From Pycnococcus provasolii (taxonomy: Eukaryota; Chlorophyta; Pseudoscourfieldiophyceae; Pseudoscourfieldiales; Pycnococcaceae): a DNA stretch of 64,000 nucleotides. Positions 6,847-48,294 of the stretch are shown piece after piece (the stretch's first letter is position 1; each line of letters begins with the position of its first letter). The DNA lies in the NCBI GenBank assembly GCA_938743325.2, contig OW568862.1:62001-126000 (forward strand), read 5' to 3'. Position numbers and translations under genes: made by a program. The notes beneath the pieces were generated by a model. It had not been told where the DNA came from. It saw nothing but the letters and a program-made list of their open reading frames with translations, and did not search any database.

Positions 6847-7818
6847 ATGGATCCCAACATGGATGCCTCGGCGCTGCGAGACAAAGCAATCGCCGTCTGG
6901 CGCGACTGGCTTGTCGTCGTGCACAAACCACGACGACTCGCAATCATCGAGCAGCTTCGCATAACCACGTCGCGAGCCAACGTGAACCTTGCAGCGGGTG
7001 AAGAGCACTCGCTGGCACTTCGACCCGACGGAAGCGTCGCGTGCTGGGGAAACGACTACTATGGCCAAGCGCCTCCCGACGGCGTTCCGGGCGAATTCGT
7101 CGCGGTCGCTGCTGGTGATCGCCACTCGCTGGCACTTCGACCCGACGGGAGCGTCGCGTGCTGGGGAGACAACGACGACGGCCAGGCGCCTCCCGACGGC
7201 GTACCAGGCGACTTCGTCGCGATCGCAGCGGGTGAGGATCACTCGCTCGCGCTCCGACGCGACGGCAATATTGCGTGCTGGGGAGACAACGACGACGGCC
7301 AGGCGCCTCCCGCTGGCGTTCCGGGCAACTTCATTGCAATCGCCGCGGGTGGTGATCACTCTTTGGCGCTTCTACGCGACGGCAGGATCGCGTGCTGGGG
7401 AGACAACGACGATGGCCAGGCGCCTCCCGCTGGCGTTCCGGGCAACTTCGTCGCGATCGCAGCGGGTTTTCATCACTCGCTCGCACTTCGACGCAACGGC
7501 ATTATCGCGTGCTGGGGACGCAACGCCCACGGCCAGGCGCCTCCCGACGGCATGCCTGGCGACTTCGTCGCGATCGCAGCGGGTGAGGATCACTCGCTCG
7601 CGCTCCGACGCGACGGCAATATTGCGTGCTGGGGAGACAACGACGACGGCCAGGCGCCTCCCGCTGGCGTTCCGGGCAACTTCATTGCAATCGCCGCGGG
7701 TGGTGATCACTCTTTGGCGCTTCTACGCGACGGCAGGATCGCGTGCTGGGGAGACAACGACGATGGCCGTCCTCTCAGCGCCAACTTTCCTTTCATGACT
7801 GATTTTCATATATTGTAA
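6847..7818 (+). CDS. RCC1-type repeat protein (beta-propeller)
   Basis: A protein of 323 residues. The ATG at 6847 (MDPNMDAS) is chosen; an in-frame start exists 28 codons upstream. After a short helical N-terminus (about 45 residues) come eight repeats of about 39 residues, each with AAGxxHSLALRxDGxxACWG and then a GQAPPxGVPG loop. This is the RCC1/BLIP-II repeat pattern, which folds as a seven- to eight-bladed propeller and serves as a protein-binding platform. The last repeat breaks off after ACWGDNDDG and is replaced by an unrelated tail of 14 residues, so the propeller may be incomplete. No second domain gives the partner. A Ran exchange factor role is unlikely without the conserved RCC1 loops. 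Confidence 0.8.
   Translation: MDPNMDASALRDKAIAVWRDWLVVVHKPRRLAIIEQLRITTSRANVNLAAGEEHSLALRPDGSVACWGNDYYGQAPPDGVPGEFVAVAAGDRHSLALRPDGSVACWGDNDDGQAPPDGVPGDFVAIAAGEDHSLALRRDGNIACWGDNDDGQAPPAGVPGNFIAIAAGGDHSLALLRDGRIACWGDNDDGQAPPAGVPGNFVAIAAGFHHSLALRRNGIIACWGRNAHGQAPPDGMPGDFVAIAAGEDHSLALRRDGNIACWGDNDDGQAPPAGVPGNFIAIAAGGDHSLALLRDGRIACWGDNDDGRPLSANFPFMTDFHIL
7207..7768 (+). repeat. 211-bp identical duplication inside the RCC1-like gene (offset 351 bp)
   Basis: Bases 7207-7417 recur without visible change at 7558-7768, covering about two RCC1 blades. The identity includes synonymous sites, which points to recent duplication or gene conversion. Confidence 0.85.
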
Positions 7819-7965
7819 TTTGCTTCCTATATTTTATAAAAAATTAAAAGTATTTCGACGGCACGCGCGTCGCGTGCGCACATACCGCATGGGAATGATT
7901 CTCAAAAAAAGGATGGACACGACGGGAATTATAAACCCAGAAAAGTACATGCGCCAGGCACAAAA

Positions 7966-8075
7966 ATGCGCTGCTGCTGAATGGCGCTGCTCATGGGCTA
8001 AATGACGAATTGTGTGAATGGACAACCAGTTGGACAGAGTAAAGTACACTCCATTACTGAATGAGCAAAATCTTA
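7966..8075 (-). repeat. Dispersed 3'-end element, copy A (PTEN)
   Basis: Read on the minus strand the copy starts with TAAGAT, whose TAA is the PTEN stop codon. It continues with GCTCATT, AGTAATG, TGTACTTTACT and GTCCAAC blocks shared with copies near 13.9 and 21.7 kb, and ends in GCGCCATTCAGCAGC-like sequence. Confidence 0.75.
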
Positions 8076-9761
8076 ACTGATGGAGCCTTGAAGCTCGCTC
8101 ATCGCGCGGTCGACGCGATCAATGCTCTCCTGAAGCTGCTCAAGCACCGCGTTCGAAGCCGACTTCTCGCGCTCTGCAGGAGACGCGGGTGGGGGTGACG
8201 ACGCAACCGCGGCCGCCATCTCGACACGCAAACGGCGATTCTCCTCGCGCAGAGAAATCACCTCCTCGTGAAGGGAATGCTTGAGCTCATGCTGAGACAC
8301 GCGCAGGTCGTTGATTTCCGACCGCGCGATGTTCAGAAGCTCCTTCGCCGTCTTGAGTTCCACCGCGACGTTGTCCTTCTCCTCGCGAAGCTCGCCCAGC
8401 TCGATGCTGCGCTCCTCGAGAGCAATCTCGTAATCCACAGCCTGGGACCGCGAAATGTTGCCGTTGGAGGCTTTGGCGCCTTCTTGAGCAGCGCGAGCAG
8501 CCAACTGCACCTTCCGCAGCGACGTTTTTTCTTTCGCTCGTGCCTTGCCTTCTTCGCTGTTGCCGAAGGAAACCTTGCCACCTGAAGCATGCGTATTTTC
8601 GCTCTTGCTCTTAAGGGCGCTCGGCACTCGCGTAAGTCCGTTGGCTTCCGCGCGCGTCTCCTCCGCTGACGCGGCTTCCGGCGCAGCCGCTGCTGCTGGC
8701 GCGATCCTGCCGTCGTCCTCTTTGATCACAACTTCGTCAGGACTTGGGTCAACCTCCACCTCGAGTGCCACGGGCAACTTGCGCAGCTCTTTCCTAAGTT
8801 TGTCGAGCTGCTCTCGTCCGTCGAGGCGAACAGGTGCGCCGTCCGCTGGCATGAAGTGCGTGTTGAACCACGCGTGGAACAGCCGGTTCTTCTTGTTCAC
8901 GTTTGAGTAGTACACGTCGAAGCGCACGTCGCCCTGCACCGCGAGCGCGCTGCCCACGCCCATCTGCGCCTTAACTTCGCACGTCCAGCCGTTATCCTCA
9001 ACCTTGACGATGTGCGGCACGGCTTCATGAGCGCCGCTCTTCAAGCTGAAGCGCGCCACTTCCGTCGTCTGCAAGGTTGTTGGATCGCGCATGCTGACGA
9101 CGACTATGAGAGACCTGAGCAGTTGTTCTTTCAAGCCCAGTACTCGTATCCTGCTGACTCGTTTTCTCGGCTGGAGCGGCACACCGCCGTCTTTGAGCAT
9201 TTGCGCAAAGTACCCGACGTACCTTCTCTGGCTCGGTATGGTGACCCCCTTACCGTCGTGCGTGCGTCTTTTCCCGTAGAAGTCCATCGCTTCCTTGGCA
9301 TCGTGCACAACCCCCTCGTGAATGAGCCTTGCGCATATCATGACGCCCGTCCGTCCTTTCCCAGCCTTGCAGTGCACGGCCGCGACCCCGCCCGTTTCCT
9401 TGAGCGCTGCGACGTCTTTGCAGAAGTCGTGCATTTGCTGCAGCGTGGGTACGTTGTGGTCGTCGAATGGGTACACCGCCGTTCGGTTGAGGAATACGGC
9501 CTTGTCGTACTTCCTGTTCGGTTCCGAGCACAGGTTGTACACCTTGTACTTGTCGGCGTGTTTGTGTTCTAGGAACTTGACGACATCCTTGCGCGGGTTT
9601 CTGTAGATGGCCTCCGTTCCCGTGGCTGGGTACCCCATGGCGATGAGGTCGTCGGTGACGTACGCGAGGTCGAGGTCAATGCCTAGTTTGGCCATCTTGA
9701 ACCTGCGTTTCTTGGAGGAGACTAAACGGCGCACTAATAATAAAGGGACCAAGCAAGGCAT
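8073..9761 (-). CDS. PTEN: PTEN phosphoinositide 3-phosphatase
   Basis: A protein of 562 residues. The phosphatase P-loop HCKAGKGRTG (residues about 129-138) is identical to that of animal PTEN, and YPFDDHN supplies the general-acid Asp. TIPSQRRYVGYF is also PTEN-typical. A C2 domain for membrane binding follows (about 195-325). The enzyme removes the 3-phosphate of PIP3 at the membrane. The ATG at 9761 is chosen over the one at 9695 because the extra N-terminus carries VSSKKRRFK, which matches the PIP2-binding motif before DLDL in PTEN. The C-terminal part is acidic, Ala-rich and then a coiled coil of about 110 residues (435-550), which human PTEN lacks, so it may oligomerise. The stop codon lies in dispersed element copy A. 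Confidence 0.92.
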   Translation of the reverse strand: MPCLVPLLLVRRLVSSKKRRFKMAKLGIDLDLAYVTDDLIAMGYPATGTEAIYRNPRKDVVKFLEHKHADKYKVYNLCSEPNRKYDKAVFLNRTAVYPFDDHNVPTLQQMHDFCKDVAALKETGGVAAVHCKAGKGRTGVMICARLIHEGVVHDAKEAMDFYGKRRTHDGKGVTIPSQRRYVGYFAQMLKDGGVPLQPRKRVSRIRVLGLKEQLLRSLIVVVSMRDPTTLQTTEVARFSLKSGAHEAVPHIVKVEDNGWTCEVKAQMGVGSALAVQGDVRFDVYYSNVNKKNRLFHAWFNTHFMPADGAPVRLDGREQLDKLRKELRKLPVALEVEVDPSPDEVVIKEDDGRIAPAAAAAPEAASAEETRAEANGLTRVPSALKSKSENTHASGGKVSFGNSEEGKARAKEKTSLRKVQLAARAAQEGAKASNGNISRSQAVDYEIALEERSIELGELREEKDNVAVELKTAKELLNIARSEINDLRVSQHELKHSLHEEVISLREENRRLRVEMAAAVASSPPPASPAEREKSASNAVLEQLQESIDRVDRAMSELQGSIS

Positions 9762-12035: not shown

Positions 12036-13742
12036 ATGGCCGTGCCTCTGCGCCAGCGCGCCTTCCTATTAGGAACGCTCATCGTAGGAGTCGTCACGTG
12101 GAACCAGTACCTCGTCAGTGACAGGGAAGACTCCATAATCATACCAGATTCGCACACGCTTCGGCGAAGCGATGACGACTCCATGTCGGCGGCGACTCTT
12201 GAAGACTCTGCAAGAAGTAGCACAGGTTCACGCGGCAGCTCTGGCGCCGATACTGCTGATTTCAAAGCGTCTACTGTGCAAACGACAATCATGCACGAGA
12301 TTGAGGCACAGCTCGCCGCCTTTGACGCCGACGACGCGAGAACGGAACAAACGAACGGGAACGCGGAAGGGCACGACCAAACAAACGCAGACGCCGCTGA
12401 AACGGACGCGGAGAACGAGGGGGACGCGCCGCCGGCCGGGGAGCTCGTCGCGCACGCCGACGGAAAATACGTGAAAGAAGAAAACGACGTCGCGGTCGTC
12501 GACTTTGGCGCACCACCTGCCGCCGCGCATGCACAGCCGCCGGTGGCAACCAGGCGCGCGAGGCCTGCGCGAACGAGGCAGGCAAACCCAGCAGGGGCGC
12601 TCGTCGCAAGGGACGCGGCGAGGGTCGCGGCGGCGCGAGCGAGAGTTACCGCGGCCAGCGCGCGGGCCGACATGTCCGCCCAAATGGCTGAAATGGCCAC
12701 AAACGCAATCGCACACAGGCACGCCGTCAGTGCAAGGCGAGCAAGGGCGGGTGGCCTAGCGCCGTCCTCCACCGCCGTCGCGACGGGGACTTCGCAGTCA
12801 GCTCTAAAGGACGACGCCGCACACGTCGAGAGCGGTACGACGTGCTCTGTGCTGTATCAGCACGGTGCGAGCCGCACGTGCTCGAGTCACGTAAATCGCG
12901 CAATCGCACACATGATGCCGCACTTCCGCAGTGCATACGATGGCCGGTCCATCAGCCTCACGCAATTAAGCGTGCGCACTGGCGGCGCGAATGGCCAGCC
13001 CGCACAGCAGCTGTACACCAGCTTGCCGCCGAAGGTACACCGCCAAATCCCTCTCGGACCAGTGTCAAGCCGTCTCATGGCTGCATTGCCTCGCGACGAC
13101 CCGGCGTTCCCTCCCGAGCACGTGTTCGAGAGCTGCGCGATCGTAGGCAGCTCTGGCATTCTGCTGAAGTTTAACCTCGGTGAGGACATTGACAAGCACG
13201 AGCTCGTCATGCGATTCAACAGCGCGCCAACGAGAAGATTTGAAAAGCACGTCGGCCGTAAGACGACGCACCGCCTAACGAACACGCGAAACTTTGCGTA
13301 TCGCGAATACCCCGAGGAGAACGTTCTGGTGCACCTACGCAATCGGGGGAGCCTTGACACTCTCGTGAACCGCCGGCTGCGCCGGGCTGGTCAGGGCGGG
13401 GAGCGGCTTTACGGCTTGAATCCCAATTGGCACATGTACATGGATCAGACATTTCGCTTCCTGAGCACGTCCGGCTTTAATGGCATTATGCTTGGCCTTC
13501 ATGTGTGTCAAAGCGTGACCCTGTACGGCTTCCATGTGCATCCGAGGCACGGTGCCCTGTATCACTACTACAACCCGAAGGATGTCGCGGCGAACGAGGC
13601 GCGCGATGGCGACGAATGGTTCATCGTAAAGGCGATGACCGATTCGGGGGCGGTGAGATTCGCGGAGCCATGTATTGTAGAGTGTCACAATGGCGACCAG
13701 GCTTGCCGCGCATGCCTTAAGGAGGCTGGCGCATCTATGTAA
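12036..13742 (+). CDS. GT29 sialyltransferase-like protein, type II membrane protein
   Basis: A protein of 568 residues starting at the ATG at 12036. An N-terminal signal anchor (AFLLGTLIVGVVTW, residues 10-23) is followed by a long acidic, Ala-rich stem to about 350. The catalytic part shows the sialyl motifs of family GT29: motif L near residues 364-400 (SCAIVGSSG followed by HELVMRFNSAP), motif S near 477-500 (STSGFNGIMLGLHVC followed by YGF), and the YHYY motif near 508. Animal members transfer sialic acid from CMP-sialic acid to glycans in the Golgi. Algal members are known only as homologues, so the donor sugar here is inference. The stem is unusually long. A second, divergent GT29-like gene lies at 53.2 kb. 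Confidence 0.85.
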   Translation: MAVPLRQRAFLLGTLIVGVVTWNQYLVSDREDSIIIPDSHTLRRSDDDSMSAATLEDSARSSTGSRGSSGADTADFKASTVQTTIMHEIEAQLAAFDADDARTEQTNGNAEGHDQTNADAAETDAENEGDAPPAGELVAHADGKYVKEENDVAVVDFGAPPAAAHAQPPVATRRARPARTRQANPAGALVARDAARVAAARARVTAASARADMSAQMAEMATNAIAHRHAVSARRARAGGLAPSSTAVATGTSQSALKDDAAHVESGTTCSVLYQHGASRTCSSHVNRAIAHMMPHFRSAYDGRSISLTQLSVRTGGANGQPAQQLYTSLPPKVHRQIPLGPVSSRLMAALPRDDPAFPPEHVFESCAIVGSSGILLKFNLGEDIDKHELVMRFNSAPTRRFEKHVGRKTTHRLTNTRNFAYREYPEENVLVHLRNRGSLDTLVNRRLRRAGQGGERLYGLNPNWHMYMDQTFRFLSTSGFNGIMLGLHVCQSVTLYGFHVHPRHGALYHYYNPKDVAANEARDGDEWFIVKAMTDSGAVRFAEPCIVECHNGDQACRACLKEAGASM

Positions 13743-13804
13743 CAAAGGAAAATTGTTCTTGACCAGAATTGCATCGACGGGATCCCACGAACCCCGTGTA
13801 AAAA

Positions 13805-13922
13805 CGCGCTGCGAAAATGCGCCCATGCTTGAATGGGCTGTATGATGAATGTGAATGGCGTGAATGGACGACAACCGTTGGACGAAGTAAACTCTATTAC
13901 ATTGCTGAATGAGCGATCTTAG
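13805..13922 (-). repeat. Dispersed 3'-end element, copy B (AP endonuclease)
   Basis: Read on the minus strand it begins TAAGATCGCTCATT and shares the TTTACTTCGTCCAACGG block with copies A and C. It starts 60 bp after the stop codon of the AP endonuclease gene, in the same orientation as that gene. Confidence 0.75.
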
Positions 13923-13981
13923 AAAAAAAGAAATCTTAGGAAAAAACGAAAATTGGCGGATAATTGGCGACTCGACGTTGC

Positions 13982-15454
13982 TCATAGGCGTATTTCCACA
14001 AACACGGGAGCATGGTCGCCACGCTTGTCAGCATCGTCGAGGATCGCGGCATCATGCACACGGGGCGTCGTCTTGGACGATGGTGCCATATCCTGGCTCA
14101 CAACTGCGTAGTCGAGACGTAGCCCGCGATTTTTCGGCTTGTTTCCCGCGCGCACGCTCCAGTACGTGTACACGTGCTTGGCATGGGGATGCAGCGCTCG
14201 GAAGGAGTCAACGTACCCATGTTCCAGCATATCACCGAAAGCTGCCCTTTCCTGCGGCGTCGTGCCAGCGCTCTTTGCGATGTGCTTGGCGGTCACATTC
14301 CAGATATCTTCGTCGAGGTGCGCGACATTCAGGTCGCCGACATATGTCACTGGAATTGCTTTCGATTTGAAGGTATCGAGGTACGCCGTCATGTCCTTCT
14401 CCCACACGTTGATGCGGTAGTCGAGGCGTTTCAGGTCCTGTCCTGAGTTGGGCACGTACGCAAACACGAGCGCGAGCGACGGATCTGAAAATACGAGCGT
14501 CAGCACGCGTCCCTCGGTGTTGTACTCGCTCTTCTTCCCGCCGATTCCCTCCGTGATGCTGGCGAGTTTTGCGGTGGGTGGCAGCAGGGATTTGCTGGAG
14601 CCTGTGGCAGCGCCAAATGAGAGTGTCGTCTGCTTCGAGGAGCCTGCAGCCTTCTTTGCGCCGCCGCTTGCGCCAGCCCTCTCCGCGGCGGTGAGGGCGC
14701 TCGTCGCACCCTTCTCTCCCGCGATGTCATTGCTGACGAGGCACACGACTCCGCTATACCCCGCCTTAGATGTGGACACCGCCCAGTGGCAGGAGTACCC
14801 TGGAACGACAGCCTTGAGCTGCTCTTCCACCTCCACGAGGTGCTGTTCCTGCAGCTTGTGCTCCTGCAGGCACAGCACGTGCGGTTTTTCATCCTTGACA
14901 AGTTTCTGCAGGATTGCCACCCTGTCATTTTTGAGCGCGGCGCGCAGCCCACCCACGTTCCACGACAGAACGCGCAGGCTCCTGTCGTTTTTGGCGAGGG
15001 GTTTCTGTCTCGGCGTTTCCGTGCGTGGCAGCACCCCATCCGCCGCGGCGGCGTCGTTTGCGTCGTTGCCGTCCGCGTCCTTCTCCGCCGCCTTGTTATT
15101 TTTCGTCGCCCCCTTTGTCTTTTTGGACGGCGGCGGCGGTGGCGCTGCATGCGTCGGCGCAGCTTCGTTTGCGTTACTCATGTGTTTTCTTTTTTTCGTC
15201 GTCGTTTCTTGCGTCGCCGGCATCGCGTTCGCACCAAGGACGTTTGGCACATGAGCGGGCGGCGGCGGCGGCGGTTTGCGCGGCCTCCCTCCCTTGTTCA
15301 GAACGATGGCTGGCGGCGGCGGCGGCGGCTGGCGTGGAGGCCGCCCCGGTTTCCTTTGAAGTGGAGAGGGAGGCGGCGGCGGAGGCCCAATTAAAGCTGC
15401 TGACGGAGAAGGCGAGCTGCCGCCATTGCCGCCATTGCTCTTCTTAGACCCCAT
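13982..15454 (-). CDS. AP endonuclease (ExoIII/APE1 family) with AT-hook-like and PIP-like motifs
   Basis: A protein of 490 residues from the ATG at 15454 (MGSKKSNGG). The catalytic core starts at about residue 160 with LSWNVGGLRAAL, then LCLQEHKLQ (metal-binding Glu), GDLNVAHLDEDIWN, TPQERAAFGDML, LRLDYAVVSQ and GDHAPVF (catalytic His). The enzyme cuts DNA 5' of abasic sites in base-excision repair. The N-terminus of about 155 residues is Pro-rich with two GRP cores in basic context (KPGRPPRQ, KGGRPRKP), resembling AT-hooks. An insert of about 60 residues splits the core between VCLVSND and the EYNTEGR strand and contains KQTTLSF, similar to a PCNA-binding PIP box. Both would tether the enzyme to DNA or to replication clamps. 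That is inference from motifs. Confidence 0.88.
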   Translation of the reverse strand: MGSKKSNGGNGGSSPSPSAALIGPPPPPPSPLQRKPGRPPRQPPPPPPAIVLNKGGRPRKPPPPPPAHVPNVLGANAMPATQETTTKKRKHMSNANEAAPTHAAPPPPPSKKTKGATKNNKAAEKDADGNDANDAAAADGVLPRTETPRQKPLAKNDRSLRVLSWNVGGLRAALKNDRVAILQKLVKDEKPHVLCLQEHKLQEQHLVEVEEQLKAVVPGYSCHWAVSTSKAGYSGVVCLVSNDIAGEKGATSALTAAERAGASGGAKKAAGSSKQTTLSFGAATGSSKSLLPPTAKLASITEGIGGKKSEYNTEGRVLTLVFSDPSLALVFAYVPNSGQDLKRLDYRINVWEKDMTAYLDTFKSKAIPVTYVGDLNVAHLDEDIWNVTAKHIAKSAGTTPQERAAFGDMLEHGYVDSFRALHPHAKHVYTYWSVRAGNKPKNRGLRLDYAVVSQDMAPSSKTTPRVHDAAILDDADKRGDHAPVFVEIRL

Positions 15455-16451
15455 ATGGATTCGATTCGATTCACACACGGGACGGAGATGAATCCTAATC
15501 CGAATCCAAGTGCCAAGGGAAAAGGAAGGGCTTGTTCCTTTCCTTGTTCACGTGTGACATCACTGTGACGGACCCTGATTCGCCAAAATGGAGGAGGAGA
15601 AAAGGGAGGAGGGGGAATGGAAGAGAGAACAGGGCGCGCCCTACCTTTAACCGAACCGAACCTAAAACCAAACCCCTAGACTATCGTAACCCTAATGGCT
15701 TGCTTTGCTGGACCTAACCCCGAACTGGACCAAACATACAGTAGGATCCATCAGGATGAACTCCTTCATTCCTGAGTTATCTATCCTCGCTCCTAGTTGG
15801 TACGAGGAGTTTGCTCCCTCCTGATTCCACCTGATGATGATGACAAGCAATTAATCCTTGGATTGATATATTTCTCTCAAACTTAGTTCTAAAAAGTCTA
15901 CTTTTTACGGTTCGTTCTCTATTGCAGGAAACAACCAACCATGGCACGAATATCGATATCTCCCCTTTTCCACCCAATAACTTTGCAATAACTTTGGAAT
16001 AACTTTTGGACCTAACCCTCGACCTATTAGGCATCTCTTTTGGAATAAGTTTTCCTTTTCTTTTCCTTTTCTTTTCCCCGAGATATCGATATTCGTGCCA
16101 TGGTTGGTTGTTTCCTGCAATACGATAGTCTACATCCTTACATAAGGGCCAGTTCTTAACTAATAATAACTACCAGTGCCAGTGCCTGATTCCTTCCAGT
16201 GCCTGATCAATCAGTTCCTGATGAAGATGAACCAGTTCCTGAGGAACTTCTGCAGCATCATAGTACTATCCCCTACAAGTTACAACTGTCTTGTCTCTCG
16301 CCCGCTCCCACTCTCCCAGGTGCCAGTCCCAGGTGCTTTCTTCCTTTTCTTTCCCGGCCTCGCACCTCGCACCACCTGGTGGCAACTCTTGCAAGCGTCT
16401 TCCCCTGGCAAGCTGGCCTTACATATTGTTTTTAGTAGTACCACTCTTGTC
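15455..16451. other. Divergent intergenic region, AP endonuclease and ABC transporter
   Basis: A region of about 1 kb between divergent genes. It holds the foldback repeat at 15920-16122, several CTAACC/ACCTAACCC-like fragments and a pyrimidine-rich tract at 16052-16079. The frame of the ABC gene stays open upstream of 16452 but does not look coding. Confidence 0.45.
15920..16122. mobile_element. Foldback (MITE-like) element with 43-bp perfect inverted repeats
   Basis: Bases 15920-15962 are the exact reverse complement of 16080-16122, around a 117-bp spacer that itself carries related TTTGGAATAA and TTGCAATAA segments. The whole is 203 bp. I see no clear target-site duplication. It is a non-autonomous DNA element or a transcribed hairpin. 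Confidence 0.6.
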
Positions 16452-19400
16452 ATGGCGTCTCTTCCTCCTCCTGGCCCGGCCCCTGGGAGTAGTAGGAAAA
16501 GAAGTTCTAACCAAATAGTGGCGGTGGCGGATCTTGTTGGTGGTGATCTCGGTGACAGTGATAGTGGTGGGTTAGGGTTGGGCAATCTTCCTCCTCCTGA
16601 TGTGGCAGTGCCAGTCGCCGTCGCCTTTGCTGTCTCGGAAAGCAAGGTTACCAGTAGTGGTGGTGGTGGTGGTGGTGGTGGGAAGGATGATGGTGACGAA
16701 GAGATACAAGAAGATGGTCATGATAAGCAGGACGACTCCGACGAATTGGACCTGCCGTCGGCAGCATTCACTGCGCTCTTCAAACACGCGGACTCGATCG
16801 ATGCCATGCTCATGCTCGTCGGAACGGCGGGCGCTGTCGTGGGAGGAAGCACGCTGCCCGTCTTCTCCGTGCTGTTCGGGGACCTCGTGCAGTCACTAGG
16901 CGAAGGGAAGGCGAACATTAACACAATCGTCATCAGCTTCGCCGTCCTAGCAGCCATCGCGCTCGTCAGCTCGTACTTGGAAGTCGCGCTATTCCGACTC
17001 GCAAGCCAGCGCATGGCCGGACGCGTGCAACGGGCATACCTCAAGGCGCTGCTCGACCAGGACCCTGGATACTTCGACACGTCAGACAAACTGTCGGGAA
17101 AACTACTCAGCTCCATATCCAACGACGCCGCCGAGTACAAAGACTCCGTCAGCGAAAAGGCGTCGAACGTCGTGCACCACACAAGCACGCTCCTCGTGGG
17201 CATGGGCATTGGGTTCTGGTACAACTGGGTGCTCAGCCTCGTGCTCCTGGCGTGCATCCCGCTGCTCGCCGCGGCAGGGGCTGTCATGAGCAATAGCCTA
17301 GAGAACGCGTCCAAGGCGAACGCGGAGGCGTTTGGAAACGCCGGCGCCATCGTCACCGAAACGGTCGGTGCAGCGCGCATCGTGTACAGCCTCGGCATCG
17401 AGGACAAGTTCGTCAAGCAGTTTGGAGACACGCTCAAGACAACCATCGCCATGGGACGGCGAGCTGCCGCCGGCTTTGGATTTGGGCAGGGTGTCATCGA
17501 CTTCGTGTTCTTTGGAATTTACGCGCTTGCGCTGTGGTATGGCGCGAAGCAGATCACCGACGGCGACGCGACTGGCGGTGACGTCATGACGACCCTCTTT
17601 GCCGTAGTCATCGGCGGATTTGGAATTGGAAATACCGCGCCTGGTTTTGCGGCGTTTGCCAAGGGGCGGGCCGCACTCGCTCGCATCAACGCCGTTCTCG
17701 AGCGCCAGCCGGCGATTGCCGATCCCGCCGACGGTGGCAAGGAACCCAGCAATGCCACGGGAACGCTCGTCATGACCGACGTCGCGTTCGCGTATCCCAG
17801 CCGACCTGGCGTTCCGATATTGCAAGGCCTCAACTTGTCCGTGGCGAGCGGCGAGTCCGTCGCCCTCGTCGGGAAGTCTGGCAGCGGCAAGTCCACCGTG
17901 ATCCAGCTCGTCGAGCGCTTCTACGACCCGCTCGGCGGGAAAATCACGTTCGACGGCCACGAGCTGAAGAGCCTCAAGCTCGCATGGCTGCGCTCGCATC
18001 TTGGCCTCGTGTCCCAGGAGCCGACGCTGTTCGCGACATCGATTCGCGAAAACATCCTGTACGGCCGTCCTGGCGCGACCCAGGCGGACGTCGAGGCGGC
18101 GAGCTTGATGGCACACGTGACGGAGTTCGTGTCCACGCTGCCCGATAAGTTTGAAACGCAGGCGGGCGAGCGCGGCGTGCAGCTTTCTGGCGGTCAAAAG
18201 CAGCGCATCGCGATCGCGCGCGCGGTGCTTCGCAACCCGACGCTCTTGCTTCTCGACGAGGCGACGAGCGCGCTGGACACGGAGTCGGAGAGGCTTGTGC
18301 AGGATGCGCTGGACAAGCTCATGGAGCGCCGTTCGTCGATCGCGATTGCGCATCGCCTGAGCACGATCCAGAACTCGGACAAGATCGTGGTGATGCAGAA
18401 GGGGCGCAAGGTTGAGGAGGGCACGCACGAGCAACTGAGCAACACCAAGGATGGGGTGTACAGCATGCTGCTCCGTCAGCAGCAGGGACGTGGAAGCACG
18501 GATGACCTAACGAAGGTTGAGTCGCAGGCGTCGTTCGACGATGAGGAGGATGGCGAGGATGGCGGCAAGGTGGTATCAAAGTCGCCCACGAAGGTGATGT
18601 CGAAAAAGCTGAGCAAGTCATCCTCGAACAAGGATGGCGAGGAGGAGAAGAAGGAGGGGGAGGAGGAGAGTGAGGAGGAGAAGGCTGTGAATGTTGGCTT
18701 TGCTGACCTGTGGCCGTATCAAAAACCGGAGGCTGGCTGGATTGTCGTTGGTATCATCGGATCCATGCTAGCTGGAGTCGTTCTGCCGCTGTTCGCCGTT
18801 GCATTTGCCGGCTTTTTCGATGTTTTCTTTATGCCCGAAGGTCGTGCACGTGACAATAAGGTGATGGAGTACAGCTTGATGATGCTTGGCCTTGGTATTG
18901 CGAGCTTCGTAGGAAAGTTTTTCGCAGGCCTCGGGCTTGGCATCGCCGGCAACAGGCTTGCACTGCGTCTTCGCGAGGCGCTCTTCGGCGCGTACATGAA
19001 CCAGGAGATTGGATTCTACGACGAGGCGAGGAACACGAGTGGTGCCATCGTGAGCCGTGTCGAGAAAGACACGATGAACATCCGCGGCGCGCTAGGAGAC
19101 CGCTTTGGCGTGGCGCTGCGTTGCGTCGTTTGCGTGGCTGCGGGGTACACCATCGGTTTCTTCCGTGACTGGAAGCTGACGCTTGTCATCACCGCCATCT
19201 TCCCCCTGATTGTTGGCTCCGCGGCAATCGATGCGATGTTTCGCATGGGATTTGATGCAGGCCAGGGCAAGAAGGAGATAGATCCTGCGACGCAGCTTGC
19301 GGCGGATGCCGTCGCGAACGTGCGCGTAGTCCAGGCGTACGACATGTCCATGTCAATCATAGATGCATTCACCGCACGTCGTGGTGGCACGAGCAAGGAG

Positions 19401-20444
19401 GAGGTGAGGCTTGCGCACGTTGTCGGCATGGCATTCGGATTTAGCCAAGGAATTATATACGCGCAGTACTCGCTGTGCTTCTGGTACGGCAATGAGCTCG
19501 TGAAGAAAGGAGAGATGAAATTTAACGAGGTGTTCGAGGTTTTCTTCGCAATCCTCTGCGTCGGCTTCGGCCTTGCGGAGGCGGGAACCATGGCCCCTGC
19601 CGTTGCCGAGGCGCCTGCTGCCATTAAACGCGTGTTTGCAGTGCTGCATCGCCAGCCGGCGATTGCCGATCCCGCCGACGGTGGCAAGGAACCCAGCAAT
19701 GCCACGGGAACGCTCGTCATGACCGACGTCGCGTTCGCGTATCCCAGCCGACCTGGCGTTCCGATATTGCAAGGCCTCAACTTGTCCGTGGCGAGCGGCG
19801 AGTCCGTCGCCCTCGTCGGGAAGTCTGGCAGCGGCAAGTCCACCGTGATCCAGCTCGTCGAGCGCTTCTACGACCCGCTCGGCGGGAAAATCACGTTCGA
19901 CGGCCACGAGCTGAAGAGCCTCAAGCTCGCATGGCTGCGCTCGCATCTTGGCCTCGTGTCCCAGGAGCCGACGCTGTTCGCGACATCGATTCGCGAAAAC
20001 ATCCTGTACGGCCGTCCTGGCGCGACCCAGGCGGACGTCGAGGCGGCGAGCTTGATGGCACACGTGACGGAGTTCGTGTCCACGCTGCCCGATAAGTTTG
20101 AAACGCAGGCGGGCGAGCGCGGCGTGCAGCTTTCTGGCGGTCAAAAGCAGCGCATCGCGATCGCGCGCGCGGTGCTTCGCAACCCGACGCTCTTGCTTCT
20201 CGACGAGGCGACGAGCGCGCTGGACACGGAGTCGGAGAGGCTTGTGCAGGATGCGCTGGACAAGCTCATGGAGCGCCGTTCGTCGATCGCGATTGCGCAT
20301 CGCCTGAGCACGATCCAGAACTCGGACAAGATCGTGGTGATGCAGAAGGGGCGCAAGGTTGAGGAGGGCACGCACAGTGCCTTGTTGAGCATGAATGGCA
20401 TTTACACGAAGATGCACACGCTCAACACGGGCGGTGCTCTCTAA
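16452..20444 (+). CDS. Full-length ABCB (P-glycoprotein/MDR-type) ABC transporter
   Basis: A protein of 1,330 residues with the order membrane domain, NBD, linker, membrane domain, NBD. The ATG at 16452 (MASLPPPGP) is chosen; the frame is open further upstream but hydrophobic and not family-like. The membrane domains begin near residues 115 and 755. Both NBDs have Walker A GKSGSGKS, Q-loop VSQEPTLF, signature LSGGQKQR, Walker B LLLLDEATSALD and H-loop AHRLST, so both ATP sites are complete. The linker (about 690-745) is Lys- and Glu-rich. Family members export lipophilic compounds across the plasma or organelle membrane. The two NBDs are identical in DNA over 726 bp, which is most unusual. 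Confidence 0.93.
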   Translation: MASLPPPGPAPGSSRKRSSNQIVAVADLVGGDLGDSDSGGLGLGNLPPPDVAVPVAVAFAVSESKVTSSGGGGGGGGKDDGDEEIQEDGHDKQDDSDELDLPSAAFTALFKHADSIDAMLMLVGTAGAVVGGSTLPVFSVLFGDLVQSLGEGKANINTIVISFAVLAAIALVSSYLEVALFRLASQRMAGRVQRAYLKALLDQDPGYFDTSDKLSGKLLSSISNDAAEYKDSVSEKASNVVHHTSTLLVGMGIGFWYNWVLSLVLLACIPLLAAAGAVMSNSLENASKANAEAFGNAGAIVTETVGAARIVYSLGIEDKFVKQFGDTLKTTIAMGRRAAAGFGFGQGVIDFVFFGIYALALWYGAKQITDGDATGGDVMTTLFAVVIGGFGIGNTAPGFAAFAKGRAALARINAVLERQPAIADPADGGKEPSNATGTLVMTDVAFAYPSRPGVPILQGLNLSVASGESVALVGKSGSGKSTVIQLVERFYDPLGGKITFDGHELKSLKLAWLRSHLGLVSQEPTLFATSIRENILYGRPGATQADVEAASLMAHVTEFVSTLPDKFETQAGERGVQLSGGQKQRIAIARAVLRNPTLLLLDEATSALDTESERLVQDALDKLMERRSSIAIAHRLSTIQNSDKIVVMQKGRKVEEGTHEQLSNTKDGVYSMLLRQQQGRGSTDDLTKVESQASFDDEEDGEDGGKVVSKSPTKVMSKKLSKSSSNKDGEEEKKEGEEESEEEKAVNVGFADLWPYQKPEAGWIVVGIIGSMLAGVVLPLFAVAFAGFFDVFFMPEGRARDNKVMEYSLMMLGLGIASFVGKFFAGLGLGIAGNRLALRLREALFGAYMNQEIGFYDEARNTSGAIVSRVEKDTMNIRGALGDRFGVALRCVVCVAAGYTIGFFRDWKLTLVITAIFPLIVGSAAIDAMFRMGFDAGQGKKEIDPATQLAADAVANVRVVQAYDMSMSIIDAFTARRGGTSKEEVRLAHVVGMAFGFSQGIIYAQYSLCFWYGNELVKKGEMKFNEVFEVFFAILCVGFGLAEAGTMAPAVAEAPAAIKRVFAVLHRQPAIADPADGGKEPSNATGTLVMTDVAFAYPSRPGVPILQGLNLSVASGESVALVGKSGSGKSTVIQLVERFYDPLGGKITFDGHELKSLKLAWLRSHLGLVSQEPTLFATSIRENILYGRPGATQADVEAASLMAHVTEFVSTLPDKFETQAGERGVQLSGGQKQRIAIARAVLRNPTLLLLDEATSALDTESERLVQDALDKLMERRSSIAIAHRLSTIQNSDKIVVMQKGRKVEEGTHSALLSMNGIYTKMHTLNTGGAL
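17703..18428 (+). repeat. Identical 726-bp NBD block, copy 1
   Basis: This block covers residues 418-659 of the ABC transporter and matches 19650-20375 base for base as far as I could compare, including all synonymous positions. Confidence 0.9.
19650..20375 (+). repeat. Identical 726-bp NBD block, copy 2
   Basis: The second copy of the nucleotide-binding-domain block, offset 1,947 bp from copy 1. Sequence on both sides diverges abruptly. Confidence 0.9.
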
Positions 20445-20665: not shown

Positions 20666-21625
20666 ATGGGACGCGCGTCGAAGGATAAGCGCGACGTGTA
20701 CTACCGCCGCGCGAAAGAGGAAGGGTGGCGCGCGCGCTCCGCATACAAACTCCTGCAACTCGACGACGAGTTCGGCATCTTGCACAATGTCGAGCGCGTT
20801 GTCGACCTCTGCGCAGCACCCGGATCGTGGTCGCAAGTTCTATCACGACGCCTCCTCGGGCCTGCGCCTTCCGCATCTGGTGCTCAGGGTGGGGTGGCAG
20901 GCTCTGCCGCAGGCGCAGCCTCCGAACGACCGCGCATCGTCGCGGTGGACCTGCAACCCATGGCTCCCATTGCCGGGGTTAAGTGCGTGCAGGGAGACAT
21001 CACGGACCCAACGACGCTTGACGCAGTCAAGGACATTTTAGGCGCACAGGCGGACGCCGTCGTGTGCGACGGCGCTCCAGACGTCACCGGACTACACGAC
21101 TTTGACGAGTACGTGCAAGCACAGCTCGTCGTCGCGGCGCTCGGCGTGTGCGCGCGTGTGCTTCGCCCCGGCGGTTGCTTCGTCGCGAAAGTGTTCCGCG
21201 GACCGGAGAGTGGCCTTCTGTGGGAGCAAATGCGCGTGCTCTTCCACGACGTGCACCTCGCAAAACCTCGGGCTTCGCGTGGATCATCCGTCGAGGCATT
21301 CGTTGTCGCGCGCGACTTTAGGCCGCCACCTTCGAGCAGTTCTGGCGACAGCAGGGTGAACGACCCGTTGATGGACGCTCTCGACATCGAGCAGCCGCGC
21401 GCGGCACCTTTCGTCGCGTGCGGCGACTTGAGCGGCTGGGACGCTGACCGTTCATATGACCTCGAGGTTCCCGAGCAAGCTCCCACGTCGATGGACGAAG
21501 ATGGCGATCCTAGTCAAACGCCTGACGAGATGCGTCGTCCCAAGCCGGTCGTGCTTGCGCCTGTGCAGGAGCCCACGGCGCCGGCTTATTTGGCCGCTCT
21601 CGCAAGACGGCGTGCGAAGCACTAA
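20666..21625 (+). CDS. FTSJ1: TRM7/FTSJ1 tRNA 2'-O-ribose methyltransferase
   Basis: A protein of 319 residues. The N-terminus MGRASKDKRDVYYRRAKEEG and then RARSAYKLLQLDDEF is nearly that of yeast TRM7 and human FTSJ1. The SAM site VDLCAAPGSWSQVLSR follows. The K-D-K-E catalytic tetrad is visible in SAYKL, CDGAPDVTG, FVAKVFRG and SSVEAFVV. FACGDLSGWD-type sequence near residue 250 is the family's conserved C-terminal part, used in partner binding. The enzyme methylates riboses 32 and 34 in the tRNA anticodon loop, using S-adenosylmethionine in the cytosol. The gene follows the ABC gene on the same strand by 221 bp, and its stop codon is the first base triplet of dispersed element copy C. Confidence 0.93.
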   Translation: MGRASKDKRDVYYRRAKEEGWRARSAYKLLQLDDEFGILHNVERVVDLCAAPGSWSQVLSRRLLGPAPSASGAQGGVAGSAAGAASERPRIVAVDLQPMAPIAGVKCVQGDITDPTTLDAVKDILGAQADAVVCDGAPDVTGLHDFDEYVQAQLVVAALGVCARVLRPGGCFVAKVFRGPESGLLWEQMRVLFHDVHLAKPRASRGSSVEAFVVARDFRPPPSSSSGDSRVNDPLMDALDIEQPRAAPFVACGDLSGWDADRSYDLEVPEQAPTSMDEDGDPSQTPDEMRRPKPVVLAPVQEPTAPAYLAALARRRAKH

Positions 21626-21718
21626 GATCGCTCATTGAGTAATGAAATGTACTTTACTTCGTCCAACGGTCGTCACACCACTCAGCCCATTCAGCGGCGC
21701 CATTCAGCAGCGCATCTT

Positions 21719-21720
<2 letters not shown>
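21623..21720 (+). repeat. Dispersed 3'-end element, copy C (TRM7)
   Basis: It starts with the TRM7 stop codon (TAAGATCGCTCATT), continues with ATGTACTTTACTTCGTCC and ends in CCATTCAGC direct repeats. A TG dinucleotide run follows at 21723-21757. Confidence 0.75.
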
Positions 21721-21763
<43 letters not shown>

Positions 21764-21793
21764 AGCCATATTTTCAGAATAATTGATTATTTT

Positions 21794-23827
21794 TTACTTT
21801 CCTGCATTCAAAGGATCTTGCGAAGTCTCTCTCTTCAGTAATTCTCTTTTTTCAGTATTTTTTCTTAGTAGTACAGTGCGATTTGTCGGAGACTCCTTCT
21901 CAGGCGTACCTAATTCCTCACGCGCTCGCTCTTCTCTAGCTTCCTGATTGGTCACCGCTTCCAAAGCATGCTCCATCACAACCTCCAACACATCCTTCAG
22001 TGACACGCTGGAAGCCTCGAGCATACTTGTGAGCAATGCAGCGAGAAGACTCAAACCCATCGCCGTGAGCAACATCCACGTGATTACGTACCAGGGAAAG
22101 TCCTTCGCGGGCATGCCCGGCGTGTCGCCAGACGTCAACGAGAAGTCGCCGTAGCCGATAGTCGTGAAGGAGATCCACGCATAGTAGTAGCAGTCGCTCA
22201 ACGACCACCCTACAAGATGCTCCATGATCTGGCTGTAGACGACGATGTACAAAGCAGCGAAGAATGAGATGAGAATGACGTTTTCGTACTGCTCGCTGAA
22301 GAACGGCAAGTCCATCAACTCGTTCAGGAACCCCGAAGCGCGGTTGAACACGACGGCGTCACGGATCAAAATCATGCCGTGCAAGCCAAGGCCTATGAGC
22401 GAAAACAACACGAGGAACAGGCGGCCATCTTCGGTGAACGGCACGATGTCGCCGTACCCGATCGTGGTGATGGTCTGAAAGACGATGTAGAAGCAGTGCC
22501 AGTAGTCGAAGCGGTGCACGTACGGCTCGCCTGCATCGAGCTTTTCCACCTGCGCGCGGTACACGGAGTTGCCGGCGCTGAACGCAGCGAGCTCTTGAAT
22601 AGCGGCGTGACACGGTTCGTGTGTTGCGTTTGTGGCGCTGGGACCATAGCACGCGTTGTACACATTGGTCTCGTGTTCCGCGTAATCTGTTCGATATTTG
22701 GCTATTCTGTCCTTCTCCGGGCCTTCCTCGAGATTGCTGAGAACCCTTGCTCCTAGGCTGAGGTAGCCAAATAGTACGCAGTACAAGAAGGCGGACTTGA
22801 ACACGGCCGTGGGCGTCGGGTCAGCCTCGACTCCGACGCCAGAGAAGAAGCCGCCGAAGAAGTCCATCACCCGGTTGAGCGTGCTGTACTGGGTGCTCTC
22901 ACTCTCACTCTTGCTTAAGGTGTCGAGCGCGTGCAAGCCTTGCCTTGGGTCGAGGGCGCGGATGAGCGTGTCAATCACGTCGAACTGTTCTCCTTCGTTG
23001 CTGATGGTCTTTCCGTGTTGTTCCACGAGCTGTGTCATGAGGTCCTTGGTTTCATTAAACCTTTGATATCTGCTATTTTCCGATACCTCGGCGGCCACCA
23101 CCTCGTTTAAGTGGTGCATCGTCTGTCCCGGCGACGTCGGCGTCCCTTCGAAGCTTGCCTCGCCACTACTGGGCCCCACTTTCCCTTTGCCCCATCCAGC
23201 TGTACGCCACAAGTTCCATTGTTCGGCAATCTGGTGTTTTCTAACGGCGTTCGTCAGTCCCTGTTTTTTGTTGGACGAGTTTGCGCGACTCCAGTTTTGC
23301 GTATGCTTCGTCGCACTCGCTACTATGGAGTGTATTGCTGGAAGGCTGCTCTCTCCCCCCGTCACTTCGTCGTACATGGGCGACAGCGAGCTTCCGAGCG
23401 GCGACGTGGGCGTCCCGTTTCCGTTTCCGTTTCCGTTTCCGTCGGTTGGCGTGGCGGCCTCTCGTGTCCACGTGATCGTGCGCGCTCCATCCTTGAGTGG
23501 CGGCAAGAAGTCGGCTCCCCCTTGCGTATCGGCCGCCACGTTCGCCTCTCCCCCTTCGACATCGACGGCGTTTACGGCGGGAGGGGGCGTAACTTCTGCA
23601 CCTCCTTCCAATCCCGAGAACGCGCCTTCACGCGCACTACCATTACTAGAAGAGGGCAAAGGAGGAGGCAAGGGCGCCTCAACGTCAACGGACGAAGCAC
23701 CCTCAGCACCCTTAGCATTAGCACTGGCACTGGCACTGGCGTCCTCCTCCTCCTCCTCCTCTGAGACTTGCCGGACATCGATGTTGTCGGAGGAGGGGGA
23801 GGACATGGAACGCCCTGATGAGGACAT
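21794..23827 (-). CDS. Two-pore-domain potassium channel
   Basis: A protein of 677 residues; the ATG at 23827 is used because the more distal start of the frame is not an ATG. Residues 1-330 are polar and low-complexity. The channel part has M1 (FLYCVLFGYLSLGARVL), pore 1 with TTIGYGDIVP near residue 455, M2 (LFLVLFSLIGLGLHG), M3 (LISFFAALYIVVYSQIM), pore 2 with TTIGYGDFSL near 555, and M4 (WMLLTAMGLSLLAALL). Two pore loops per chain means a dimer forms the K+-selective pore in a membrane. The C-terminal tail (about 75 residues) is charged and lacks the EF hands of plant TPK channels, so it should not be Ca2+-gated in that way. Upstream is a GTAC-rich intergenic region. Confidence 0.88.
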   Translation of the reverse strand: MSSSGRSMSSPSSDNIDVRQVSEEEEEEDASASASANAKGAEGASSVDVEAPLPPPLPSSSNGSAREGAFSGLEGGAEVTPPPAVNAVDVEGGEANVAADTQGGADFLPPLKDGARTITWTREAATPTDGNGNGNGNGTPTSPLGSSLSPMYDEVTGGESSLPAIHSIVASATKHTQNWSRANSSNKKQGLTNAVRKHQIAEQWNLWRTAGWGKGKVGPSSGEASFEGTPTSPGQTMHHLNEVVAAEVSENSRYQRFNETKDLMTQLVEQHGKTISNEGEQFDVIDTLIRALDPRQGLHALDTLSKSESESTQYSTLNRVMDFFGGFFSGVGVEADPTPTAVFKSAFLYCVLFGYLSLGARVLSNLEEGPEKDRIAKYRTDYAEHETNVYNACYGPSATNATHEPCHAAIQELAAFSAGNSVYRAQVEKLDAGEPYVHRFDYWHCFYIVFQTITTIGYGDIVPFTEDGRLFLVLFSLIGLGLHGMILIRDAVVFNRASGFLNELMDLPFFSEQYENVILISFFAALYIVVYSQIMEHLVGWSLSDCYYYAWISFTTIGYGDFSLTSGDTPGMPAKDFPWYVITWMLLTAMGLSLLAALLTSMLEASSVSLKDVLEVVMEHALEAVTNQEAREERAREELGTPEKESPTNRTVLLRKNTEKRELLKRETSQDPLNAGK

Positions 23828-44016: not shown

Positions 44017-44256
44017 CTAAGAGTAGACTATCAAAGTTAATAGAATATGTACTGTACTGTACTGTAAGCGCCACCTACTAACCTACCCGTACAGTAAATA
44101 ACTCAAAGGCTCACTCACGCAGGCAGGTGTGCTGGTGCCTAGCGCTAATCTTTTTTAAAAACCAGACTCGTGATGGATGGGAGCTTATTCTCAATCAGTC
44201 CGGCGAAATCAGTCCCGTGGGATCGGGAAGGTTTTAAAAACTTATTTTAAGACGCC

Positions 44257-44460
44257 CCTGGCAGTCCCCTCGGGCAACCATATACGGTCGTCTAAATGAG
44301 TGCACGCTACAGGTCGGCGGATAGGTCTGGTCGACGCTACAGGTCGGCAAACTTTGCTAAAGGTCTCTGGTCGACGCTACAGGTCGAGAAATGGGAGTAA
44401 ATAAATGTAGCGTGCACTCATTTAGACGACCGTATATGGTTGCCCGAGGGGACTGCCAGG
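44257..44460. mobile_element. Foldback (MITE-like) element with 55-bp perfect inverted repeats
   Basis: Bases 44257-44311 are the exact reverse complement of 44406-44460. The 94-bp centre, together with the end of the left arm, carries three copies of a CGCTACAGGTCG unit. The total is 204 bp, almost the same as the foldback at 15.9 kb though unrelated in sequence. No clear target-site duplication is seen. Confidence 0.65.
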
Positions 44461-44610
44461 ACGGGGGTGGAATTGGGTGCCGGCGCCTACCCTAATCTAA
44501 TCTAATCGATCATGTGTGTGCAAGGCATCAGAGAAGGTCGAATTACCTTAGCAGTCCCCTCCTTCCTACCTTTACGGTAGTGGTGGTACTAATAATAGGG
44601 GTTGGAGGAG

Positions 44611-44645
44611 GTTCGGGTTCGGGTTCGGGTTCGGGTTAGGGTTAT
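44611..44645 (+). repeat. Telomere-like TTCGGG/TTAGGG array
   Basis: Four GGTTCG-phase units followed by one or two TTAGGG-type units. It is a short interstitial array. Confidence 0.6.
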
Positions 44646-45216
44646 AGGGCATTTTACAGGAAAACATCGGCATCTTCATTTCGCACCTCCCCCTCGCGCT
44701 GTGCTCGCGTGTGTTCTGCCCGCCCGCCCGTGCGTGGATCCATGCCGGCCGCTTCGTCGAGCACAAACAGAAGCAGTGGCAGAAGCGACCTCAGCTTGCA
44801 CCTACCTATAGGCGACGACAACGACCGGCCGCAAGCACAACCGCTGCAAGACGCCGTGCGAGAACCCGGACAGACCACGAACGCAGAAGCGGCTGTCACA
44901 GAGACGACGCCTCTGCTCGCCGTGGGGAACCAGCACGACGACGAAGGTGGACTGGCGCAGCACGAAATGATGACGACGACGGGCGGGGCAGACGCAACCT
45001 CCGCGTCGCCCATCGGAGCCGTGTGCACACTGGCAAACTGCGCGGTGGGAGCCGGAGTGCTCGGACTCCCGTGGGCGGTGAGCTGCCTCGGTGTCGTCGG
45101 AGGCGCGCTGCTGTGCGCCGCCGCCGCTTGCCTCGAGGGAAGGACGCTCGTTATGATTGTCGCTTGCGGGCGCGAGTACAAGGCGCGCACATACGAGCAC
45201 CTCGTGCAGCTTGCGG

Positions 45217-45798
45217 TGGCCATGCCGCAGATCGCAGCCGCCACGAGCGGGACTCCTGCACGCACGCCGTTGTGCGCGCCAATGACACAGAACGCGCCCA
45301 ACCCAAGAAAGTCGCCCGTCTCGATCACAGCCTCAGCCGTTGGATTCATCTGGCTCTGGCTGATGTTTGGCCACAGGAAGAACGTCGCTGCGGTGGTGGC
45401 GATGCACATGTACAGGTACTCCGCCTCCGCCATCCAGAAGCACGGCCCTCTGACGCCGAGAAGAAAGTCGCGCACCGTACCCCCTCCCACGGCGGTGATT
45501 GTGCCAACAATTCCGCACCCCAGAGCGTCCATGCCTGCGGCACTTGCGGTGAGCGCACCGCTGCTGGCGAAAGCGACCGTTCCGACGTAGTCAAGGAATC
45601 TCAGCGACCCCCCGGCTTCGGCTCAGGGAACCGGGGTAGCAGGCCAGGCACCGGCGTAGGTATTTCAGCGCCCGCCGCTGCTGCCTTAGTGGCAAATCTG
45701 GCTGTTGCATTTGCAGCAGCAGCAGCAGCAGCTTTGCTGTTGTTGTTGTTGGTGTTGTTGTGTGTATTATTGACGAACGTGCGTGCGATTCCCCACAT
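45217..45798 (-). pseudogene. UPF0126/TRIC-like membrane protein fragment, nested antisense
   Basis: On the minus strand RFLDYVGTVAFASSGALTA, GTITAVGGGTVRDFLLG and LGLGAFCVIGAHNGV are typical of the UPF0126 (YadS/YicG, glycine-transporter) family of two three-helix repeats. The N-terminus from the ATG at 45798 (MWGIARTFVNN, Ala- and Arg-rich) looks like an organelle-targeting peptide. It lies in another frame from the helices: a run of six G at 45608-45613 would need to be seven for KPGG to read on into SLRFLDY. The second helix repeat stops at ICGMATA, exactly where the antisense amino acid transporter sequence starts, so about 80 residues are missing. A sequencing error could explain the frame change but not the truncation. 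Confidence 0.65.
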
Positions 45799-46443
45799 TG
45801 TCGCTGAGGAAGGAGAAGAAGGCGGTGGTGTTGTTGGATTCGCGTGAAGTTGAAATCGCACTCCTCGGTGTCCCAGAAGTGTATGTTTGTACCCTCCCGA
45901 TGCGCATCCCGTGATGAGACGCACACCGTGATGAGGAGGCACACATGCACGAACAGGCACACACTGTGATGAGCGTATATCCCGGAGACTTCTAAAAGTA
46001 AAAGAAACAGGCACTTCTTTATAGAAGAGAGAAAGAGAACGCCGAAAAGAACTTGTAAAAGCGAAGAGAGAGAGAGACGCCATATGGACTACTTTTTAAA
46101 AACGAAAATCCTTAGAAATTGAGAAAAAGGGTCCTGCACCCCCCAGACTGCCAGATTTGGGGATCCACCAACCACACGACCAAATAAGTCCATGCACCAT
46201 TTTGGTCGGGCCTTTTTTTTTTTCCCCTTGGGGATCCCGGTCGGAGGTCGGTGTTTTGACTTTTGGTGGTGTAGAGTTGTTCCATCGTTGTTGGCAATGG
46301 CGTCCAAGTGTGGGAGAGGATGGTGGGGCTGTGGGGCTGCGCTGAGGGGCGTCCGTTCGACGATATATCCGAGCGACGTGCGCCCTGTTGTAAATAAACC
46401 ACTTCTTTTCTTCCCCTCGTTTTAATGTCTTCTCTCGTACCGG
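45799..46443. other. Segment between the interleaved transporter pieces
   Basis: This stretch probably holds the 5' flank of the UPF0126-like fragment. A polypyrimidine tract at about 46405-46440 precedes amino acid transporter piece 2. No gene is supported in it. Confidence 0.4.
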
Positions 46444-47211
46444 GCTAACTCGGCAACGTCGCAGCGACCATCACGGCCGGCGTTATTATCCTATACCTAT
46501 TTGGCAGCTGCGCGTCGTACCTCATAATCATAGGAGACTGTCTGCCCACCGCACTTAAGCCTCTGCTGATGCTTACGGGAGTGAAGAACGGCGTGCCAAG
46601 AGCCGGGCGTGATTGCGCGATCAGGCAGTAAGAATCCAACGGGAGTTGCGATCGCCGTATGCGTCACCTCCATGTTGCTATGCTGCGCCGCGTACTCGGC
46701 GGTGGGGATTGCGGGATACCTCACGGACCCACGCACGTTCGGCGACTACCTTGTGAGCCTGCAGCAGATGCCACACGCGGCATGGGCGTCCGATGCATGC
46801 AATGCCGCCATCGTCATCATCGCGCTTATCTCGTACCCTGTCAACTATTTGCCCGCGCGTGACGCCATCGAGCACTTGATGCGTGCAGATGGCTCTTCGT
46901 CGTCATCTCAACGTGCGCGCCGCCTTGTGATGGCGATTGCTTGGTATGTCGCATGCCTGGGGGTGGCACTTACCGTCACGGACCTCGGCGTCGCATTTCA
47001 GATTATCGGCGGCACGGCTGGTGCCGCTGTGATTTTCAGCGTTCCGGCGCTCGTGCAATGGTCGCGCCTGAGTCGTGCACGTTCGCGCACGGATCGTTCC
47101 GGTGACTCGAGCGTGGTATCTTCCCCTGCCTTTGCGCTTCGTCGTGTCGAGGCGGTGCTGCTCATGCTACTGAGCGTGGGCATTCTGTACGCAACGCTTA
47201 TGTCATTGTAG

Positions 47212-48137: not shown

Positions 48138-48294
48138 AACAGAGCCACACGCGCGTGCGCGTGAAAAGTAACGGGTAGTCACGTCGGCTAATCCAACACA
48201 ACAACCACACGTGTGCGGCTACAGCAGCAGCACGTGCGTGTTCAAGGCACGAATAAACGTCTGAGGCACAACAGAGTGCATTTTCCAGACAACT

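Follow-up and report, generated by a model that had tools for sequence, protein, structure and literature searches.

The 64,000-nt stretch of Pycnococcus provasolii DNA analysed here (the window) contains three copies of a repeated element that a preliminary description had placed at the ends of genes for PTEN, an AP endonuclease and TRM7. All three copies are present, can be aligned to one another and were matched by our profiles, and the Pfam domains of the adjacent ORFs agree with the gene names that had been given (Table 1). The profiles used to search the window derive from family members in the genome, window copies 2 and 3 among them; a 65-nt profile found its next-best place in the window at an E-value of 0.29 and nothing better than E=3 in the reversed window. 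As had been proposed, the predicted stop codons of the PTEN-like and FtsJ/TRM7-like ORFs are the TAA triplets of copies 1 and 3 themselves (8073-8075 and 21623-21625, respectively), and copy 2 begins 59 nt downstream of its ORF's stop (given previously as 60 bp), with an element-like CCTAAGATTTC lying ~20 nt ahead of it. The window has four intervals that separate convergent ORFs of at least 300 aa, and the copies lie in three of them.

Table 1. Copies of the element in the window, the predicted ORFs that they adjoin and the intervals that hold them.
Feature	Window positions	Strand	Details
Copy 1	7944..8076	minus	nhmmer E 8.2e-30; right-end fragment, ~133 nt; envelope start 8076, profile start 8068
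Copy 2	13793..13922	minus	nhmmer E 6.2e-31; right-end fragment
Copy 3	21622..21724	plus	nhmmer E 3.7e-28; right-end fragment
PTEN-like ORF	8073..9761	minus	Pfam PTEN_C2 and phosphatase domains; adjoins copy 1
Exo_endo_phos ORF	13982..15454	minus	Pfam Exo_endo_phos; stop 13982-13984; adjoins copy 2
FtsJ/TRM7-like ORF	20666..21625	plus	Pfam FtsJ; adjoins copy 3
Convergent-ORF interval holding copy 1	7819..8072		between 6847..7818(+) and 8073..9761(-)
Convergent-ORF interval holding copy 2	13743..13981		between 12036..13742(+) and 13982..15454(-)
Convergent-ORF interval holding most of copy 3	21626..21793		between 20666..21625(+) and 21794..23827(-)

The three window copies belong to a large family. 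A DNA search of the assembly (32.3 Mb, 46 contigs) yielded 188 candidates, of which 40 were scored and all 40 matched; the 15-mer TTTACTTCGTCCAAC, with at most one mismatch, had 199 genome matches (104 + 95) versus 3 (2 + 1) for its reversed control, and a right-terminal 16-mer had 197 exact matches versus none for its control. On contigs C1-C5 the two patterns marked 47 and 45 places, eight of them shared, which by capture-recapture gives ~264 copies there; scaled to all matches this becomes ~1,170-1,200 copies in the whole genome, a rough figure that assumes the two patterns to be independent.

The size of ~100 bp first assigned to the element proved too small, as the longest genomic copies read are ~980 nt (about 1 kb) and carry a second, inverted terminus, the three window copies being distally shortened. 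Homology runs from the right end for up to ~750 nt common to the longer copies, with many different distal end points; several of the varied start points once considered as 5' truncations were in fact alignment breaks inside longer matches. The termini have the consensus CT[A/G]AGATC[G/C]CTCATTCA..., and the left (CTAGGATCGCTCATTCAATATTG) and right (CTAAGATCGCTCATTCAGTAATG) termini form inverted terminal repeats, with CTAGGATCGCTCATTCAATATTGAATGG at the second terminus corresponding to CTAAGATCGCTCATTCAGTAATGG in inverted orientation. The boundary at the right end is fairly well defined: when 56 copies were placed with a 60-nt match, 41 had C at position 0 and 43 had T at position 1, with no consensus at position -1 (the 60 CT-like starts among 67 copies in another alignment are a biased count, since most starts there were snapped to a CT-like motif). 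An antisense frame ending ...VINAWGEDADEDFFDNIS* was observed in the long copies; a peptide search gave 51 matches, many with internal TAG, and their open frames were for the most part short, up to 366 aa.

Perfect 8-bp target-site duplications were found at the C33 copy near 374-375 kb (ATCTAAAC), the C35 copy near 378-379 kb (CCAAAAAG) and L029, a 225-nt copy bearing both termini (AAAGAGTC), that is, in three of the six copies readable at both ends; no clear duplication was seen at L073, L042 or the C33 copy near 467 kb (degraded left terminus), one of these three having been judged by eye. As a group, the truncated copies had exact flanking 8-mers in 1 of 67 cases versus 1.03 expected, while flank repeats of at least 9 nt near the end of homology occurred in 2 of 67 versus 0.04 expected. 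These two copies, L005 and L084, have repeats of 9-10 nt and no second terminus, a configuration that resembles retroposition. Left ends are scarce: exact left-terminal 16-mers number 8, versus the 197 right-terminal ones, a left-end pattern with up to three mismatches had 11 genome matches (control 0), and a left-end DNA search had 19. Among 67 copies the left terminus was clear in L073 (19/20 positions) and L029 (16/20, a score that shuffled left-terminus patterns reach in ~0.1 per 67 copies), and was seen by eye in L042 and perhaps L028; thus the gene-facing end is kept and the other usually lost. Judged from these terminal features, the family is best read as a putative non-autonomous DNA transposon with terminal inverted repeats (TIRs). 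By eye, a short right-terminus stub was also seen directly before a longer right end in L010, L028, L033, L039 and window copy 2, as though a younger copy had inserted into the opening bases of an older copy.

To locate the copies relative to genes, gene ends and contexts were inferred from codon bias rather than annotation, with a codon log-odds table trained on the 15 window frames of more than 450 codons, some of which are perhaps false opposite-strand frames. By a fixed criterion (ORF score >8, at least 70 codons, stop within -21 to +32 nt of the element start), 52 of 67 distinct copies, from which duplicates and copies without a recognisable terminus had been removed, had a sense-strand coding-like stop at the element start. 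Random window positions satisfied the same criterion in 100 of 6000 trials (1.7%), the opposite strand at the same coordinates in 0/67, and offset controls from -600 to +600 nt (shifts of 200-600 nt) in 0, 0, 0, 0, 0 and 1 copies; random position and orientation across the genome, the outcome named beforehand as contradicting the proposed placement, was therefore not seen in this sample. Exact 15-mer copies taken in genome order gave a similar picture (19 of 26 distinct ones), and in 56 copies most of the best stops fell in a range from ~35 nt ahead of the element to a few nt within it. Fifteen of the 67 failed the test: in eight a good ORF ends at a distance of 39-159 nt, two are near an ORF whose length was short or whose score was just below the threshold, and for five (L012, L031, L040, L058 and L060) no ORF end is convincing; a location elsewhere is therefore possible for some copies. 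Longer or less diverged copies, 12 of which are also among the 67, had a coding-like ORF (score >8) ending nearby in 18 of 20 cases, within 60 nt in 17, and a further set of such copies in six of seven. A comparison of the 52 upstream proteins identified no related pair at E<1e-4, so that expansion of gene families does not account for the spread of these copies.

We examined the gene context of 68 copies (65 from the set of 67, together with the three from the window; L001 and L034 are the loci of window copies 3 and 2, respectively). The next gene was convergent in 53, tandem in 13 and absent in two; under random gene order about half would be expected to be convergent. Since either end of an element faces a stop codon in a convergent interval, orientation there is partly trivial and by itself weak evidence. 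The unequal distances of the two ends from the flanking stops are the stronger point: in the 47 convergent copies with a score >8, the right end lay a median of 4 nt from its own gene's stop, versus 79 nt between the distal end and the neighbour's stop. At one locus (L021) two right ends were observed face-to-face between convergent genes, one for each gene.

In 13 of the 68, bases 2-4 of the element (C-TAA or C-TGA) make up the predicted stop. At the C35 copy, the empty site obtained by joining the flanks reads ...WYQLFGGKYFSNTFFIIIED, 14 residues further than the occupied site, which ends ...WYQLFG at the element's TGA; at L029 the empty and occupied sites both end ...KES*, with the last residue unchanged and the native TAA exchanged for that of the element. 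Reconstructed in this way, the two loci show that the predicted frames terminate on the first bases of the element. The element in the C33 copy near 374-375 kb lies 28 nt downstream of the stop.

Because most copies begin right at the stop codon or within a few bases downstream of it, the 3' UTR of the adjacent mRNA should begin in the element, and from position alone we infer that the right end forms this 3' UTR. In 21 long copies conservation was even over positions 1-240 (0.80-0.94 per 20-nt bin), with gaps concentrated in CCATTCA repeats, and consequently no special constraint is visible in the first 60 nt of these copies. The predicted RNA fold of the typed consensus was no better than those of 100 mononucleotide shuffles (-50.9 versus a mean of -58.7). 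UGUA at 20-39 nt after the gene end occurred 11 times at 29 element-free ends versus 7 times at 29 ends with the element, a weak comparison because the element-free set includes missed elements and chance ORFs. The preliminary description had offered two readings, a mobile 3'-UTR cassette or a 3'-end-processing module. The former appears largely right, mobility being borne out by the inverted termini and 8-bp duplications and the 3'-UTR part following purely from position; the latter fares less well, given the lack of extra constraint in the first 60 nt and a UGUA comparison that is only a weak hint.

Short derivatives with both ends (L029 and L073) and the 8-bp duplications in three copies are reminiscent of MITEs and other non-autonomous TIR transposons with 8-bp duplications (hAT-like, Merlin-like), which likewise have short inverted termini and many copies; unlike these, most copies here are single-ended and lie against a stop codon, the termini start with CT and no matching transposase was found. 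The length of the duplication agrees with that of hAT elements, and a genome search with PF05699 (hAT transposase dimerisation) gave one match of 24.9 bits (C24:195708), not linked to the element. Merlin TIRs start with GG, and Merlin elements carry a DDE_Tnp_IS1595 transposase (PMC8101967, in the passages cited); the GG start is lacking in the family described here, and a genome search with PF12762 (DDE_Tnp_IS1595, Merlin) had no matches, so that no transposase partner was identified with these two profiles. In the passages cited from the same source, Merlin of the red alga Porphyridium purpureum is a DNA transposon with TIRs and a 9-bp duplication; the likeness is that of an algal DNA transposon with TIRs and a duplication, and the differences are the GG start and the DDE_Tnp_IS1595 transposase, absent from the genome searched.

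As regards placement, Tn7 at attTn7 inserts ~20 bp downstream of a stop codon in fixed orientation, and recognises one gene, glmS, via TnsD (PMC2918618, in the passages cited); the likeness would be one of outcome only, as many unrelated genes are involved here. Bacterial REP sequences are IS targets in the spaces between convergent genes (PMC1525189), and are alike in that mobile DNA lies at gene ends and between convergent genes; they differ in being bacterial and in offering sequence-marked targets, and the passages cited from that source are silent on stop-codon supply. Among the titles and abstract openings that a limited set of terms brought up in an open-access library, we found no eukaryotic transposon at stop codons genome-wide.

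Several other repeats and reverse transcriptase sequences were observed. The window has perfectly complementary arms of 55 nt, 94 nt apart, at 44257-44460, where there are no 300-aa ORFs (possibly a small foldback element), and of 43 nt, 117 nt apart, at 15920-16122, ~100 nt upstream of the ATG of an ABC transporter ORF (16221..20444). A 3136-codon minus-strand ORF (54566-63976) overlaps long, near-identical tandem repeats (345-bp spacing x8; 717-741-bp spacing x4), and a 736-aa reverse transcriptase ORF at 49545-51755 has a match of identical score and length at C2:296195. Elsewhere in the genome, thirteen reverse transcriptase matches in 2160-codon frames, Ty3-like by eye, have near-identical scores, which suggests recent retrotransposon activity; on contig C46 (38% GC) an ATP synthase beta fragment, chloroplast-type by eye, adjoins a group-II-intron-type reverse transcriptase ORF, which points to an algal host as probable; and at L071 (981-1508, minus) a reverse transcriptase remnant, DIRS-like by eye, is found ~150-180 nt past a short element copy.

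With moderate confidence, we favor a non-autonomous TIR transposon with a preference for inserting at the 3' ends of genes, in most cases where two genes converge, and with the right end turned toward the stop codon of one gene. The right end would lead at insertion, which would be guided to gene 3' ends; it would then become the 3' UTR of the adjacent gene and may provide a 3'-end signal that substitutes for the native one, now displaced. Insertions led by the left end, or landing too close to the stop of the neighbouring gene, would be deleterious and disappear, and the distal part, being dispensable, would be deleted later. Targeting at insertion and selection are both proposed causes of placement, targeting being invoked besides selection because no sampled copy lies clearly in other non-coding DNA and because longer copies are placed alike. 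More tentatively, the family may represent a eukaryotic transposon that targets gene 3' ends generally and in one orientation, through some link to the termination of transcription or to convergent transcription; many hundreds of genes of this alga would then owe it a rewritten stop codon or 3' UTR.

The main rival is selection acting alone on unbiased insertions: in a compact genome the survivors would be those that entered right end first, provided a working 3' end and left the neighbour's 3' UTR intact, the rest being lost. In its favor are the larger distance kept from the neighbour's stop, the excess of right over left ends and the element-supplied stops; the five copies with no convincing ORF end also leave room for it. 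We nevertheless regard it as rather unlikely, as no sampled copy was clearly elsewhere in non-coding DNA even though the window, for example, has stretches with no 300-aa ORF (such as 44017-48294); moreover, distal DNA may be retained, as the 980-nt copies demonstrate, longer copies are placed alike, and the first 60 nt have no extra constraint. Still less probable is that a host 3'-end or termination signal, never mobile, was spread by local conversion or chance: it would account for placement at the ends of unrelated genes, but homologous bodies of up to 980 nt, inverted termini and target-site duplications make it very improbable indeed.

Retroposition ranks second among the rivals and we consider it improbable. 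A target-primed antisense event (LINE/SINE-like) would join the RNA 3' end ...GATCTTAG to the gene strand just after the stop, and 5' truncation would then produce one-ended copies, consistent with the single retained end, the variable distal truncation, the right-end excess, the presence of a reverse transcriptase fragment close to the short copy at L071 and, above all for keeping it as a rival, the flank repeats of L005 and L084. A LINE/SINE was at one time the lead reading, from the one-ended copies and A/B-box-like motifs seen by eye, and was dropped: ARAGORN found no tRNA on either strand of the consensus, Rfam at nine loci (E up to 1) gave one match, to mir-598, far below its gathering score, and neither thus pointed to a tRNA-, 5S- or 7SL-derived SINE head. 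In addition, ten of the 37 RVT_1 loci, scanned with 1.5-kb flanks, carried no such tail (no profile match better than E=1.4), truncated copies had no general excess of flank repeats, and the second inverted terminus and 8-bp duplications speak against this route.

If the TIR transposon reading is confirmed, the family would constitute a genome-scale natural experiment in which a transposon hands a stop codon and 3' UTR to many unrelated genes, and would allow a test of whether gene 3' ends or convergent transcription can steer transposition. Gene annotation in this alga would also be affected, as some C-termini and 3' UTRs would be transposon-derived.
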